DNA of 33,556 nucleotides from a virus: positions 1 to 33,556 of IMG/VR virus record IMGVR_UViG_3300034101_000883; one strand, written 5' to 3'. Positions 1,640 to 20,925 of this stretch are shown here, in pieces. Made by a program: the position numbers and the translations under genes. How positions within the stretch are numbered: the stretch's first letter is position 1; every line of letters starts with the position of its first letter. Under the pieces are notes generated by a model. That model saw only the letters and a program-made list of their open reading frames with translations, had not been told where the DNA came from and did no database searches.

Positions 1640-2080
1640 ATGCAACAAATCACTTGGGTCAAACAGACTATTCGCTCTAAAATTTTCACAGAGTCGGTAG
1701 CACTTTACACCAATCTCCAAACAGGCAAGAAGGTTCAGAGAACTTCCAAGGGTCAATTCTTGGAGACTTATGCTCCTAATAACCACCTTCGGGAATGTGC
1801 CGAACCAACCGAAAATGTTTTTCAGATCAGAGAATTTGACGGTTGGGATTTCTATGCGGGAGGCTACGACATCGAGGATGATGGAGTAATTGGACATTAC
1901 TGTTGTGACGGAGACGGTATTGTCTCTATTGAGCTTCTGACAGACGGAACGATTCATTTGAATGTTCAGGGTTCTTATATGCTAGACCTTGACTCAGACA
2001 TTGAGGAGGCTATTAAGCAAGCTACTCAGTACATCAAAGACGAATACCCTGCAATTTACGAAGAATTCTTAAACTTTTAA
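1640..2080 (+). CDS. Unknown protein, paralogue A of a duplicated pair
   Basis: 146 residues, no recognised family. It is clearly related to the protein at 2593-3030. Both have WVKQ near the start, a GWDFY-x-GG block, a CCDGDG-hydrophobic-VS-x-EL motif, QG-x-YMLDL, and an AIKQA..Y....YP.IYE helix at the end. The vicinal CC and acidic DGDG could bind a metal, but no catalytic role can be assigned. Translation starts at an ATG preceded by AATAGGTGTCAAT, a leader box shared by four genes here. It is the first gene of a rightward operon that ends at the terminator at 4124. Confidence 0.8.
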   Translation: MQQITWVKQTIRSKIFTESVALYTNLQTGKKVQRTSKGQFLETYAPNNHLRECAEPTENVFQIREFDGWDFYAGGYDIEDDGVIGHYCCDGDGIVSIELLTDGTIHLNVQGSYMLDLDSDIEEAIKQATQYIKDEYPAIYEEFLNF

Positions 2081-2091
2081 TAGGTGTCAAT

Positions 2092-2412
2092 ATGCGCTGC
2101 ACTTACAAATACGAATTTCCCAACTTTGATTTTGAAGTTCCTGAATTACCTGAGGGCTTCGTTGATGTCTCTTGGCACAACGATGTCTGCCCTTCTTTTT
2201 CCTGTGACCTGAACGAAATGCAAGAAATGATTGTTTGGGTCAACTATGCCGATGAAAACAGACGGGAATGCGGAGGTTTACAGTTTGCCCTTGTCGTTAA
2301 AGACAAAGACAATGATTGTGACCCTTTCGATTTTGCTTGCGAACTAGAAACAAACTCATGGGATGCTATCTTGGACAAAATCAGCTCACTCACAAAAAAG
2401 GAATTAGCATGA
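2092..2412 (+). CDS. Unknown acidic protein in the duplicated-gene operon
   Basis: A 106-residue, strongly acidic protein, with five cysteines and many Trp/Phe residues. I do not recognise it. It starts 11 bases after the previous stop with the same AATAGGTGTCAATATG box. The next tiny gene starts in its stop codon (ATGA). Acidic, small, early phage proteins are sometimes inhibitors or DNA mimics, but there is no direct evidence for that here. Confidence 0.75.
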   Translation: MRCTYKYEFPNFDFEVPELPEGFVDVSWHNDVCPSFSCDLNEMQEMIVWVNYADENRRECGGLQFALVVKDKDNDCDPFDFACELETNSWDAILDKISSLTKKELA

Positions 2413-9647: not shown

Positions 9648-9672
9648 AATTTTCCCGCTTTTTAAACCACCC

Positions 9673-9723
9673 TTAGAAGGAATTGCCAGCAGGAGAAGGG
9701 TTAACTCTTTTCGGTGCGCTCAT
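9673..9723 (-). CDS. Possible leader peptide of the replication operon
   Basis: A 16-codon frame (MSAPKRVNPSPAGNSF) between the promoter and the DUF1376 gene. AGGTG stands seven bases before the ATG. The ATG sits in the loop of an inverted repeat (9713-9734), so its translation might be switched by folding. Very short; low confidence. Confidence 0.25.
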   Translation of the reverse strand: MSAPKRVNPSPAGNSF

Positions 9724-9734
9724 GACTTCGCACC
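9713..9734. promoter_or_regulatory. Inverted repeat in the replication-operon leader
   Basis: GGTGCG-N10-CGCACC, a perfect 6+6 repeat about 13 bases downstream of the -10 element. It could be an operator over the transcript start or an RNA hairpin. The wHTH protein encoded just upstream is a natural candidate for binding it. Confidence 0.5.
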
Positions 9735-9746
9735 TAGCTGGATTCC

Positions 9747-11337: not shown

Positions 11338-11952
11338 ATGGGTGTTCATAAAAAACTAATGGATGCAAGAATTCACTTGCAACACGCGCCTCTCAAAAAG
11401 TCAGGACACAACAAGTTTGCAGGGTATTCCTACTTTGAGCTTGGTGATTTCTTGCCAACAATCAATTCAATCTTCTATAAGATTGGTTTATGCGGTGTTG
11501 TTTCGTTTGATAAAGAACTAGCAACATTGACTATCACAGACACAGAAGATGGATCTGAGATCAAATTGACAAGCCCTATGGCAGAAGCAAACCTAAAGGG
11601 ATGTCATCCTATCCAGAATCTTGGTGCAGTAGAAACGTATACCAGGCGTTATCTTTGGGTTTCTGCAATGGAGATTGTTGAGCATGATGCTTTAGACTCC
11701 TCTGCTCCACTTAAAGAGGAGAAAGTTGTCATCACTCCTACTCAGGGTGCAACAGACAATATTCCTCCAGAGGAATTACAGTACTTGCAAGAGATGGCAG
11801 TCGATTTGATTGCGATGTGTGAGCAAGGTGATCCCAAGTCAGCTTGGGAGAAGTTAGAGGGAGAGAACCTAGACGATCAACAAAAGATTGCCTTGTGGAC
11901 ACTCCTACCAAGTAAAGTAAGAAGTGCGTTAAAGAAAGCGAAGGAAATGTGA
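11338..11952 (+). CDS. erf: Erf-family single-strand annealing protein
   Basis: 204 residues. The Erf signature is clear: KKSGHNKFAGYSYFELGDFL (about residues 20-39), QNLGAVETYTRRYLWVSAME and IVEHDALD. The C-terminal part (about 135-204) is a separate helical domain. Erf proteins anneal complementary single strands in phage recombination and genome circularisation. It is followed by an SSB-like gene, and RusA is encoded in the leftward operon. Confidence 0.92.
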   Translation: MGVHKKLMDARIHLQHAPLKKSGHNKFAGYSYFELGDFLPTINSIFYKIGLCGVVSFDKELATLTITDTEDGSEIKLTSPMAEANLKGCHPIQNLGAVETYTRRYLWVSAMEIVEHDALDSSAPLKEEKVVITPTQGATDNIPPEELQYLQEMAVDLIAMCEQGDPKSAWEKLEGENLDDQQKIALWTLLPSKVRSALKKAKEM

Positions 11953-12197
11953 TGGAAAATCGTAAAGATAATAGCGGCGTTTTATTCAAGAATGACAAAA
12001 TTGAAAACGAAAGGTCTCCTACTTATAAAGGCAACATAACTGTAGATGGCAAAGACTACTGGTTATCAGCTTGGGTAAAAGAGGGCAAGAGTGGCAAGTT
12101 CATGGGTCTAGCAGTATCACCCAAAGAAGAGTACAAAGCGAAGCCCTCAGAGCGATCTAAGGCCACCAACTTTGATTCAGACGAAATGCCCTTCTAG
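11952..12197 (+). CDS. Small SSB-like protein
   Basis: 81 residues from the ATG overlapping the Erf stop (TGATG). An N-terminal 'NSGVLFKNDK' and YKGNITVDGKDYWLSAWVKE form a compact beta-rich segment similar to the short DUF736-like proteins. The last residues, DSDEMPF, closely resemble the acidic C-terminal tip (DDDIPF) through which bacterial SSBs recruit partner proteins. Together with its place beside Erf, this suggests a single-strand-binding or SSB-mimicking accessory protein. The OB fold itself is inferred. Confidence 0.65.
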   Translation: MENRKDNSGVLFKNDKIENERSPTYKGNITVDGKDYWLSAWVKEGKSGKFMGLAVSPKEEYKAKPSERSKATNFDSDEMPF

Positions 12198-12374
12198 GAT
12201 TACGAGGCGAAAGCGGATGCTATGAGGGCTGGTTTGATTCCAGCGTAATGATTGTGAAATCGGTTGTTCGACTCAACCAACAGACGCAGCGAGTAGCCTC
12301 ACCAATTACGGGCAGGAAAGCAGACAGCAATGTCGGACGAATGTTAGTACTGCCCACCAACTTAACAGGAGTCA
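12198..12374 (+). other. Structured non-coding element
   Basis: 177 bases with no convincing gene but several stable hairpins: GCTGG-N7-CCAGC (12228-12244), GGTTG-TTCGACT-CAACC (12262-12278), and GGGCAG/CTGCCC (12310-12355) enclosing GACA-GCAA-TGTC (12323-12334). ATTACG occurs twice (12199-12204, 12305-12310) and either copy can pair with CGTAAT (12244-12249), giving two exclusive folds. It may be a regulatory RNA or leader. It is not a normal tRNA. Confidence 0.4.
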
Positions 12375-12377
12375 ATG

Positions 12378-12710
12378 ATGAATGATATTTTTAACAACAT
12401 GAAGCAGTCAATGGACAGATTCTTTGGTACACCAGCATTTAAGTTGGTACGCAAAGAAGACCCTACAACGAGCCATCAAGCCGCCCAAGGGGTAGATAGC
12501 GCCAAGATAGAGAACATGGTCTATGAGGCCATTAAAGGCTTTCCTGATGGGTGTATTTCAGATGATGTACTGGCAATGTTCCCTCAGTACCCATATTCCT
12601 CCATAACAGCCCGTTATCGTGCTTTGTTAGACAAGGGATTCATTGAGATTACTGGCACTAGAGCTGGTAAATCAGGCAGAAATCAACGGGTTATGAAGGG
12701 TCTGAAATGA
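12378..12710 (+). CDS. Winged-helix-like phage protein
   Basis: 110 residues. Tandem ATGs stand at 12375 and 12378; AGGAG is six bases before the second, so I prefer it. After an N-terminal DPTTSHQAAQ segment comes a helix (ENMVYEAIKGFPDGCISDD), then YSSITARYRALLDKGFIEIT and a basic tail (RAGKSGRNQRV), which fits a winged HTH. This type is common in phage accessory regions, with unknown targets. It could be a regulator of the rightward genes. Confidence 0.7.
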   Translation: MNDIFNNMKQSMDRFFGTPAFKLVRKEDPTTSHQAAQGVDSAKIENMVYEAIKGFPDGCISDDVLAMFPQYPYSSITARYRALLDKGFIEITGTRAGKSGRNQRVMKGLK

Positions 12711-18810: not shown

Positions 18811-20925
18811 TTAAAAATACAAGCCCATGTCTTGATTACTATAGGCTAAACCAGTTCCAAAACCAGAACTACCTAGAGGAGTTTGGCTAAATAATGCTCG
18901 TGCGCCACCACTGAGTAGCCCCCCTATAGCATTGCCAAACATTGCATTAGGATTACCTGCCGCAATCAATCCTTGAGCCGCTAAGTTTCTTGTTGCATCA
19001 GCACTTGTAGCCAAACCAGCACTTAATCTAGCACCGCCGAGTCCCAATTCACCGACTCTTGCACCCGCTTGAGCCGCTTCTTTACCAAGTTGTGCGCCCA
19101 TTGTGAAGGGTTGTTGACCCAAAGCCTCAAGCCCTTGAACTTGTCCAGAAGCAGTCGTATAAGGCGCATAAGCCGCTTGTTGACCACCATAGTACTGGCC
19201 CATTGTTTGAGCACCTTGACCAAGTAATCCCGCACCAAATTGAATTTGTTGTTGACCCGCTTGTTGAGCATTAGCCGCCAATTGAGCCTCTTGCATTGCA
19301 CGAGCGTTATACAGAGCCTGTAACTCAGGAGTTGTAGCACCATAAGAGCCACCTTGGGCAACAGAAAGACCCGAACGACCTTGCTGTTGTAGTCTGTTTT
19401 GCAAGTTAGCCAACTCTAACTCTCTGCCTGGTTGCAACAAAGCCAACTGTTGATTCAAGTAATTCTGAGCAACTTGTTGAGGACTTTGAGCCAAGTACTG
19501 ATTACCAAGGTTAAACAGAGATTGAGCGCCTGTTTGCAAAGGAGCAAATTGTGCTTGAGCCTGTTCTGCCTGAGTCAATCCTTGGTTCTGTAAAGCAACC
19601 AATCTATCTTGTTGGGCTTTAGCTTCAGGCGTTAAGGTATACCCTGCGCTAACCAATTGACCAGTTGTAGGATCAACTTTGAACTCAGAAGTGCCAAATC
19701 TAGTTGTCATTCCAACAGGACGGAACTGTGCGGCTTGTTTAGCGGCAGCAGTCTCAGCATCAATCATTGCTTGCGCTCTTTGAGCCGCTTCTTTTGATTG
19801 TTGCATTTGAAGCAAGTTGCCAAAAGTTCCTAAACCACCAGAAATAAGATTGTTTAATCCACCAGTCACAGCACCTCCCAAAGCACCACCTAAAGATGAT
19901 AAAGCACCAGAAGCCAAAGCACCACCAATAGTACCTGCGCCTGGTATTGCAGAACTTAAAAGGCCACCAGCAGTCGAGGCTACAGCGGGAGCGACAGTAG
20001 AAGCTACTGTGGGAGCAACGGCAGACGCAGCAGCAGGTGCAACTGTAGAAGCAACAACCTCTGGTGCAACAGAAGCAACAGCGGGGGCAACAGAAGGTGC
20101 AACAGCCGCTACTTCTGGGGCTACTGCGGCGAGACTAGGAGCCGCACTTGAGAGTAAACCACCCGTACCTGCCGCCGCAAACTCTGCCGCTGGCAATCCT
20201 AATGCGGCTGCCTCTGTAGCTGTTAAACCTAATCCTGCGGCTTCTGTGGCTGTTAAACCTAATTCTGCGGCTGTTAAACCTGAAGCACCTGCACTGCCAG
20301 CTCCTGTAGCACCAGCTCCAAACAAACTTTCAGCTCCATAAGCACCCAATGCAAGAGCACCGATAGGGATTGCCGCTTTTACAATAGGATCACGGCTTGA
20401 TGCACCTTGGGTAAAGAAAGTAGGATTACCTTGAGCATCAAACTGAACACCATAACCAGTATTACCCTTACCCTCGTAAGTTCCACCAAAGAACTCACCT
20501 GTTTGTCGTGTTGTGTAAGTGTTAGGAACTGCTTGACCAGTTACCTTATTGCCATAGGTTTGCTCAGTTACAGTCTGATAAATTGGGTCACCCCAATCCT
20601 CATAACCAACTATCTTTTGAACTTCTTGGGTTATTGGGCCAAACTGACTAATATCTGTAATTCCTGTTTCAGCAAGAATTCGAGCCATGTCCTTAGTAGC
20701 TTGATCAGCACCAACACCACCTGACCATTGAGATGTGTTGCTTCTGGCTTGGATTTGTTTTACCAAGTTATCAATGATTGTTGCTTTATCTGTAGCCATA
20801 GTAGGTTGCTTTGCCATAGAAGGTTGCTGAACAACAGGTGGCGGAGCAAGCATTTGCTGAATACTAGGCTGTAAACCTGTGTCCTCAAAGTCCATCAGGA
20901 AATTGTTTTCTCTTATTCTTGCCAT
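18811..20925 (-). CDS. Large Ala/Gln-rich ejection-type protein with repeats
   Basis: 704 residues. A polar N-terminus (residues 1-185) leads to two low-complexity blocks: LGLT-AAELG/ATEAAG-like repeats (about 215-250), then Ala-Pro-Val repeats of the VAPEV/ASTVAP type (about 262-325). The middle has Gly/Ala hydrophobic stretches. The C-terminal half is Gln-rich (AQAQFAPLQTG; QNLNQQLALLQPG-like). This resembles internal virion proteins that interact with membranes and DNA. The repeats also show in the DNA at about 19970-20310. Confidence 0.65.
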   Translation of the reverse strand: MARIRENNFLMDFEDTGLQPSIQQMLAPPPVVQQPSMAKQPTMATDKATIIDNLVKQIQARSNTSQWSGGVGADQATKDMARILAETGITDISQFGPITQEVQKIVGYEDWGDPIYQTVTEQTYGNKVTGQAVPNTYTTRQTGEFFGGTYEGKGNTGYGVQFDAQGNPTFFTQGASSRDPIVKAAIPIGALALGAYGAESLFGAGATGAGSAGASGLTAAELGLTATEAAGLGLTATEAAALGLPAAEFAAAGTGGLLSSAAPSLAAVAPEVAAVAPSVAPAVASVAPEVVASTVAPAAASAVAPTVASTVAPAVASTAGGLLSSAIPGAGTIGGALASGALSSLGGALGGAVTGGLNNLISGGLGTFGNLLQMQQSKEAAQRAQAMIDAETAAAKQAAQFRPVGMTTRFGTSEFKVDPTTGQLVSAGYTLTPEAKAQQDRLVALQNQGLTQAEQAQAQFAPLQTGAQSLFNLGNQYLAQSPQQVAQNYLNQQLALLQPGRELELANLQNRLQQQGRSGLSVAQGGSYGATTPELQALYNARAMQEAQLAANAQQAGQQQIQFGAGLLGQGAQTMGQYYGGQQAAYAPYTTASGQVQGLEALGQQPFTMGAQLGKEAAQAGARVGELGLGGARLSAGLATSADATRNLAAQGLIAAGNPNAMFGNAIGGLLSGGARALFSQTPLGSSGFGTGLAYSNQDMGLYF

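Follow-up and report, generated by a model that had tools for sequence, protein, structure and literature searches.

The window, by which is meant the whole stretch of 33,556 bases that was analysed, is a virus record in which an Erf-family gene, an ssDNA-binding-protein gene (here ssb) and a small gene of phrog_1123 follow one another on the + strand (Table 1). As read from the sequence, 177 nt lie between the end of the ssb-like ORF (12197) and the start of the wHTH ORF (12375), for whose protein no Pfam match was found. A preliminary description of the locus had called this the longest gap of the operon, and rightly so: when a 45-aa ORF at 12248-12385 is disregarded, no other neighbouring + strand ORFs (40 aa or longer) between 10683 and 13576 stand more than 9 nt apart, and some overlap.

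The gap (12198-12374) separates two cistrons of a phage operon for replication and recombination and contains two tandem copies of one structured RNA, each with its own closing helix P1 and both on the gene strand. The first copy, whose P1 is formed by GAGGC and GCCTC, begins 6 nt past the ssb stop codon; P1 of the second is formed by GGGCAG and CTGCCC. What the copies share is a core made up of a covarying P1, a loop-E-like GAA/AGUA step and a short P2, followed by either a GGAUG/ACGCA internal loop (type A, as in copy 1) or a GGACGAA bulge (type B, as in copy 2), and capped by a helix P3 or by a variable head. GAA opposite AGUA is a sequence signature of both window copies, invariant in the type-B alignment A2, and the step may be the motif named loop-E (bulged-G), in which a G.A pair adjoins the outer helix. 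A GACGMR stretch resembling the copy 2 bulge is also found in types A and C. The GGAUG/ACGCA letters are open as an internal loop in the minimum-energy folds of two relatives (L003 and L012) and partly paired in that of window copy 1. This architecture, tandem copies of one motif, was absent from the preliminary description.

Table 1. Genes and RNA features at and around 12198-12374 of the window. R1 and R3 are models built from type-B and type-A elements, and A2, A3 and A9 are alignments, all introduced in the text.
Feature	Position	Strand	Evidence
Erf-family ssDNA-annealing protein gene	11338..11952	+	PF04404 E 1.2e-9; phrog_155 E 2.1e-21
ssDNA-binding-protein gene, acidic ...DSDEMPF tail	11949..12197	+	phrog_18154 E 5e-14; phrog_7364 E 1.5e-10
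Copy 1, whole, type A	12204..12300	+	R3 match 12203-12303, 60.2 bits, E 9e-14; copy 1 is among the 25 sequences from which R3 was built
Copy 1 P1 5' arm GAGGC, pairs with GCCTC 12296-12300	12204..12208	+	P1 pairing in 135 type-A elements
Copy 1 GAAA, 5' side of loop-E-like step (GAA/AGUA)	12209..12212	+	Invariant in A3, partly since the collecting patterns fix these letters
Copy 1 P2 GC, pairs with GC 12289-12290	12213..12214	+	Invariant in 97/97 distinct rows
Copy 1 GGAUG, facing ACGCA 12284-12288 across the 5x5 internal loop	12215..12219	+	Conserved block
Copy 1 P3 base (C12220-G12283, U12221-A12282) and variable head (three hairpins, of which two have T-loop-like loops)	12220..12283	+	128 distinct heads in 135; head replaced in L002
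Copy 1 ACGCA side of internal loop	12284..12288	+	Conserved block
Copy 1 AGUA, 3' side of loop-E-like step	12292..12295	+	Invariant in A3, partly since the collecting patterns fix the letters
Copy 1 P1 3' arm GCCTC, then ACC	12296..12300	+	P1 pairing and covariation counts
Copy 2, whole, type B	12310..12355	+	R1 match 12310-12357, 70.9 bits, E 2.4e-16; copy 2 is in the R1 training set
Copy 2 P1 5' arm GGGCAG, pairs with CTGCCC 12350-12355	12310..12315	+	6/6 P1 pairs double-changed in at least 1 A9 row
Copy 2 GAAA, facing AGUA 12346-12349 in the loop-E-like step (5' side)	12316..12319	+	Invariant in A2, partly by the collecting pattern
Copy 2 P2 GCA, pairs with TGT 12342-12344	12320..12322	+	Inner pair: GC to AU/UA double changes, 13 distinct rows
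Copy 2 P3 GACA-GCAA-TGTC, GNRA-capped	12323..12334	+	2/4 pairs double-changed; 100% of cells paired
Copy 2 conserved 3'-side bulge GGACGAA	12335..12341	+	Invariant in A2
Small downstream gene of phrog_1123 (no function given in PHROG; wHTH according to the preliminary description)	12375..12710	+	phrog_1123 E 1.7e-7

The hairpins on which the preliminary description was based are present (GCTGG-TTTGATT-CCAGC at 12228-12244, GATT-GTGA-AATC at 12250-12261, GGTTG-TTCGACT-CAACC at 12262-12278 and GACA-GCAA-TGTC at 12323-12334). As a single sequence the 177 nt fold no better than shuffles (z -0.19, with 82 of 200 dinucleotide shuffles as good); folded singly, copy 1 has z -1.06 and copy 2 z -1.95. 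The folding energy of one sequence can thus miss a real RNA that comparison reveals. ARAGORN found no tRNA or tmRNA gene in the window, and at the element there was no Rfam 15 match up to E 5 in the window, E 3 in 11 relatives and E 2 in 15 more (26 relatives in all).

Relatives of the element

Relatives of the Erf and phrog_1123 genes were taken from IMG/VR (80 loci each, with some overlap), and many of these match the window element only in short blocks, ~20-25 nt each, split by unlike stretches. In the gaps between ssb and the next gene at 119 loci, among those listed, there recurs a GC-rich P1 whose letters change together, with GAAA facing AGUA and a short P2. It is after P2 that the types part: type A has GGAUG facing ACGCA and then the variable head; type B has the bulge GGACGAA on the 3' side, along with a hairpin of the kind GACA-GCAA-TGTC; and in types C to F the bulge is of like sequence (GGACGAG, GGCGAG) and the P3 hairpins are different ones. 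In type E (L115, L038, L075 and L158) A-U and G.U pairs replace the GAA/AGUA step to give one long helix, with a fold z of -3.89 for L115, and the step is therefore not strictly needed.

Models were built from type B (R1), type C only (R2) and type A (R3). Within the window the sole convincing R1 match is copy 2, the next best having E 6.2. R2 recovers types A and B and, with an E limit of 0.1, matches 34 of 35 whole records, five of the type-A records being reached only at E 0.026-0.056, and R3 recovers some members of types B and C. That a type-C model finds A and B, and a type-A model some B and C, points to types A, B and C being one family. Matches are confined to a single site in 33 of the 35 records, the exceptions being G023 with two distant sites and G030 with none; in G026, G009 and G008 the single site holds a tandem pair. 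Tandems of type A and type B as in the window, itself included, occur at 5 of the 168 sites of the regex-defined set, among the matches listed, and one recognised copy at the other 163. A tandem of a different sort is seen in L165 (2759-2920, - strand), where R3 matches at 2759-2839 and 2842-2920 adjoin. One regex match, L048, was dropped as a chance match.

The exact type-A pattern gives at least 120 stretches in viral contigs (loci L160-L279, all with the exact core) and the type-B pattern 49. In bacterial genome contigs the exact type-A pattern gives 4, which by title belong to Xylophilus sp., an uncultured beta proteobacterium, Burkholderiaceae bacterium 16 and an uncultured Armatimonadetes bin. 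A search with R3 over 300 genomes of one order, under stricter filters, left 2 with a match, one of them the centre genome and the other L334 (1501-1562, - strand, 39.9 bits). With identical sequences removed and the window included there are at least 173 elements at at least 168 distinct sites, in a sample drawn by sequence pattern that comes mostly from uncultured phages, some of them closely related. Isolated phages gave no blastn match to the window element or its neighbourhood, blastn being weak for such short cores, and no tblastn match to the downstream protein (12375..12710); two short relatives matched isolated phages at chance level only (E 2 or worse), and a related record, MW202483, has no convincing R3 or R2 match within the 11 kb examined.

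Covarying helices and a hypervariable head

The evidence that carries the RNA is covariation. In two MAFFT alignments that were not fitted to a model, A2 (type B, 14 rows) and A3 (type A, 25 rows), there are 21 double-change cells as against 5.2 when shuffled and at most 1 when slid, and 45 as against 15.2 and at most 13. The larger A8 (type A, 101 matches, 97 distinct) has 180 as against 55.3 and at most 36, and A9 (the R1 set, with 42 distinct rows out of 62 matches, nine of which belong to types C to F) has 87 as against 19.8 and at most 3, keeping in mind that both were fitted to the model structure and so lean towards it, and that a number of their loci lie on contigs from which training rows were also drawn. 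Two further alignments, A1 (62 rows, MAFFT) and A4 (25 rows covering types C to F, among them L038 and L075, which were put in by hand), were excluded from the counts because MAFFT had misregistered P1 in rows with a four-letter 3' loop; A5 keeps 11 rows.

A check free of any model used 135 unique type-A elements picked by their inner core letters alone. In these, P1 pairs 1-4 are formed in 133, 132, 133 and 124 (shuffled means 67.9, 83.9, 108.6 and 88.2) and P3 pairs 1-4 in 134, 126, 110 and 100 (shuffled means 115.4, 112.6, 60.1 and 57.3); further from the core, pair 5 of P1 forms in 83, and the frequency of pairs 6-8 does not exceed that in shuffles. Over P1 pairs 1-4 and P3 pairs 1-2 there are 24 G.U and 8 A.C appositions (p 0.007), so that RNA of the coding strand, rather than its complement, better explains the folding. 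P2 of type A never varies in the 97 distinct rows and so carries no covariation information, and RNAalifold on A9 draws P2 otherwise than proposed here, though double-change counts support it. No clear excess over shuffles was found in further pair types (A2, A3 and A9) or in the pairs changed on both sides (A3 and A8), and conservation of the core letters is partly produced by search patterns that fix those letters. That the RNA family is real, with a conserved loop core held between covarying helices, is well supported. The comparison over relatives that had been proposed for the locus finds both covariation and conservation, and the earlier assignment as a non-coding structured RNA element gains strong support.

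The head of type A is another matter. Its length ranges from 23 to 62 nt and 128 distinct heads occur among the 135 elements. When the window (12203-12303) is set beside L002 (2836-2923), the 40-nt flanks are 100% identical and the heads 53% identical; L003, L010 and L016 likewise have unlike heads despite common flanks (93-97% identical upstream, 100% downstream). The converse is seen in L010, L141 and L161, where the head is common at 93-96% and the P1 stems differ. By these comparisons the head behaves like a cassette exchanged between phages, and the swapped heads provide a natural series of variants with which to look for the partner. A coding role for the 45-aa ORF at 12248-12385 was considered and is disfavoured: head lengths leave remainders of 0, 1 and 2 on division by three in 38, 52 and 45 of the 135, heads are replaced whole and the stems covary.

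Two features that had drawn attention to the locus lie within this changeable part. CGTAAT (12244-12249) is present, as are the copies of ATTACG at 12199-12204 and 12305-12310 with which it had been proposed to pair in two mutually exclusive ways, making a switch. The sequences thus stand, but the switch gains nothing from the relatives, since, of 135 type-A elements scored with 10 nt on either side, just 1, that of the window, has both CGTAAT and ATTACG. CGTAAT itself is found in 3 (the window, L162 and L188), and L002, whose 40-nt flanks are identical to those of the window, has another head without it; a copy would also lose its first P1 base pair to the switch pairing. The tRNA-like T-arm is similarly a local matter: the hairpin sequence is there, and T-loop hairpins occur in 3 of the 135 (shuffled mean 0.44, maximum 3). 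Sitting as they do in the head, neither the T-arm-like hairpins nor CGTAAT are conserved.

Neighbouring genes

A same-strand ORF of at least 60 aa ends within 60 nt upstream of the element in 118 of 167 unique instances, and one starts within 70 nt downstream in 99, among the matches listed; opposite-strand ORFs near the same instances, again among those listed, number 22 upstream and 22 downstream. The distance to the upstream gene is often narrowly set: of 140 type-A elements, among the matches listed, 76 have P1 starting 4-8 nt past the stop codon of the chosen upstream ORF, 62 of these at 5-7 nt, and the remaining 64 comprise 53 at other distances and 11 that have no ORF within 200 nt.

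Among the 120 upstream ORFs scanned, phrog_7364 and phrog_18154, both named ssDNA-binding, are each matched by 41, and other ssDNA-binding profiles by fewer (phrog_112, Gp2.5-like, by 6, phrog_44 by 4 and phrog_6015 by 2). If no ORF matches two unrelated profiles, about 53 of the 120 are accounted for by ssDNA-binding profiles, which represent several unrelated families, and about 67 fall outside the listed ones as other or unknown families or apparent wrong-frame calls. Other upstream families are phrog_27714 (8), phrog_9528 (6), Pam3_Gp34 (5), endonuclease VII (2) and Mu Gam-like (2), and in L331 RecT is upstream. The C-terminal residues are PF in 54 of the 120, an ending that we take to be an SSB-type tip. 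Downstream, 53 of 99 ORFs match phrog_1123 and the others are mixed, with primase, MazG, RusA, HNH and polymerase in 1-3 each. Since ssb and phrog_1123 occur together in the lineage of the window, association with the upstream gene and with the downstream gene are inseparable there. No protein family common to all neighbours, as a candidate binder, was found. Frequent placement after stop codons, often those of unrelated ssDNA-binding-protein families, suggests a control need common to phage replication modules.

Some loci depart from this layout. In L001, L014, L037 and L097 there are extra ORFs, by eye HNH-endonuclease-like, between ssb and the element, and the junction thus also collects cargo genes. 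L284 has type-B copies at 1886-1919 (- strand) and 2367-2400 (+ strand), on opposite strands of one 5-kb contig, to be explained either by a departure from the one-strand pattern or by misassembly. In L294 (1032-1338, - strand) and L309 (7011-7354, + strand) a type-A and a type-B element flank an ORF of 78 aa whose product falls in the Acb2/Tad1 hairpin family (PF24729, E 3.8e-10), one that includes anti-defence sponges.

Possible roles and known systems

The element is probably a real control element, judging from its strong conservation and its placement. The explanation judged best, tentatively and with confidence that falls somewhat short of even, is a cis-acting intercistronic mRNA element that would fold behind the ribosome leaving the ssb-type cistron and be bound by a putative protein. 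With P1 starting 5-7 nt past the stop codon, a ribosome terminating on that cistron should, given the size of its footprint, cover the 5' edge of P1, so that the structure would form only behind the last ribosome. The conserved loops suggest a protein partner, and the core, with its GAA/AGUA step and GACGMR loop, may then be held by a host or phage protein. Structure at this place could mark the 3' end of the ssb cistron for mRNA processing, for stability or for insulation from translational coupling, and the ssDNA-binding protein would thus be made at a level different from that of the genes after it. Counting against the cis reading are the hypervariable swapped head, which a simple stability element does not explain, the partial nature of the upstream link (the about 67 of 120 without a listed ssDNA-binding profile) and the presence of copies on both strands in L284.

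The hypervariability of the head and its exchange as a cassette speak for a small RNA (or decoy) that would be processed out of the operon transcript and act in trans, in which the core would be a protein-binding handle and the head would meet host or rival targets, and the bracketing of an Acb2/Tad1-family ORF in L294 and L309 favours the same. This is nevertheless rather unlikely, as the frequent position a few nt past a stop codon suggests a role in cis and types B and C carry a small P3 in place of the variable head. A compound idea, to be thought unlikely in its turn, is that of a new phage RNA class with a fixed protein-binding core, which would tie the RNA to the ssDNA-binding-protein operon, and an exchangeable, fast-diversifying head. 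Were it true, the head swapping would be as expected for contact with a fast-changing factor of host or competitor, be it a defence that targets RNA, an RNA of the host or a competing phage.

Quite improbable is that the element acts as DNA, as a structured single-stranded site, for instance a start of replication or recombination, on which ssDNA-binding or annealing proteins would act. Such proteins are encoded nearby and 33 of the 35 whole records have a single site, but G.U exceeds A.C by 24 to 8 on the coding strand, a GNRA loop and the loop-E-like signature, which are features of RNA, are present, and the strand of the element is that of the genes, 118 of 167 having an upstream ORF on the same strand and 22 one on the opposite strand, among the matches listed. 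A self-cleaving ribozyme, for which a small conserved internal-loop core in phage genomes could speak, is the least credible proposal of all, in that the core varies greatly between types and no Rfam match was obtained in the window and 26 loci. Core variation weighs also on a metabolite riboswitch controlling the next gene: the core is compact, conserved and shortly upstream of a ribosome-binding site, and the tandem copies of the window have counterparts in some riboswitches, but loops that differ among types A, B, C, F and E are unusual for a ligand pocket, the downstream genes are mixed and no Rfam riboswitch was matched in the window and 26 loci. The 3' arms of P1, moreover, vary freely, and so show by eye no consistent complementarity to Shine-Dalgarno sequences; sequestration of these by P1 was rejected on that ground and a riboswitch is considered very improbable. 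That the element would be an antiterminator like put of HK022, a two-stem RNA that binds the beta' zinc-binding domain of RNA polymerase, is rated just as low. Two bulged hairpins on a phage transcript would recall put, as sketched in PMC9378689, yet one recognised copy rather than a two-stem unit is present at 163 of 168 sites, among the matches listed, and the element follows a gene, whereas putL is just downstream of its promoter and putR ~270 nt downstream in the account given there.

HK022 putRNA (PMC9378689) is a cis RNA of about 70 nt on a phage early transcript, with two bulged stem-loops, near early promoters. Compared by description, the likeness (a cis RNA with bulged stem-loops on a phage transcript) is a functional parallel only, since put is a two-stem unit near early promoters and the present element a one-stem unit after a gene, duplicated at a minority of sites. 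STAXI, as outlined by Weinberg et al. 2010 (PMC2864571), consists of pseudoknots repeated in tandem, often with UUCG loops, in the neighbourhood of genes whose proteins bind ssDNA or handle DNA in other ways, and for STAXI a role as RNA or as ssDNA was left undecided; the idea of a DNA site was raised for it there. It resembles the present element in being structured, tandem and near genes for ssDNA-binding proteins (here 41 of 120 for phrog_7364 and 41 of 120 for phrog_18154), and differs in that a single nested hairpin with the GAA/AGUA step and GACGMR loop accounts for the covariation here. Presumably included in the Rfam library searched, STAXI gave no match in the window and 26 loci. On what could be compared of it, STAXI is the nearest published idea found, and its defining pseudoknot is not needed to explain the element.

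Glutamine riboswitches (glnA and downstream-peptide) have a loop-E step and a GGACG-like stretch, with the parts in a different order, and no Rfam match ties them to the element in the window and 26 loci. The L17 downstream element and other 3'-UTR cis elements (PMC2864571) are likewise structured RNAs after a gene that they possibly concern, the gene being a different one. A limited literature search, with the 2017 paper on 224 candidate RNAs outside its scope, found no published description. Going by sequence comparison, the element is apparently an uncatalogued, orphan structured phage RNA carried by many bacterial viruses, and as a compact and strongly covarying RNA in many otherwise different phages, unmatched in Rfam 15 for the window and 26 loci, it is a candidate new RNA class.

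Two other Rfam hits in the window lie away from the gap, both on the - strand. That to isrG at 19952-20205, in repetitive coding sequence, is taken as chance (23.1 bits, with a gathering threshold of 100). The other, to int-alpA RNA (RF02996), which has no match in 12198-12374, is at 9670-9744, flanked by a wHTH-like ORF and by a replication gene of DUF1376/O-like kind, and is below threshold (27.6 bits, gathering 35.8); as weak int-alpA matches are likewise present in L025 (32.3 bits), L120, L109 and L102, it is possibly a divergent member of that family.
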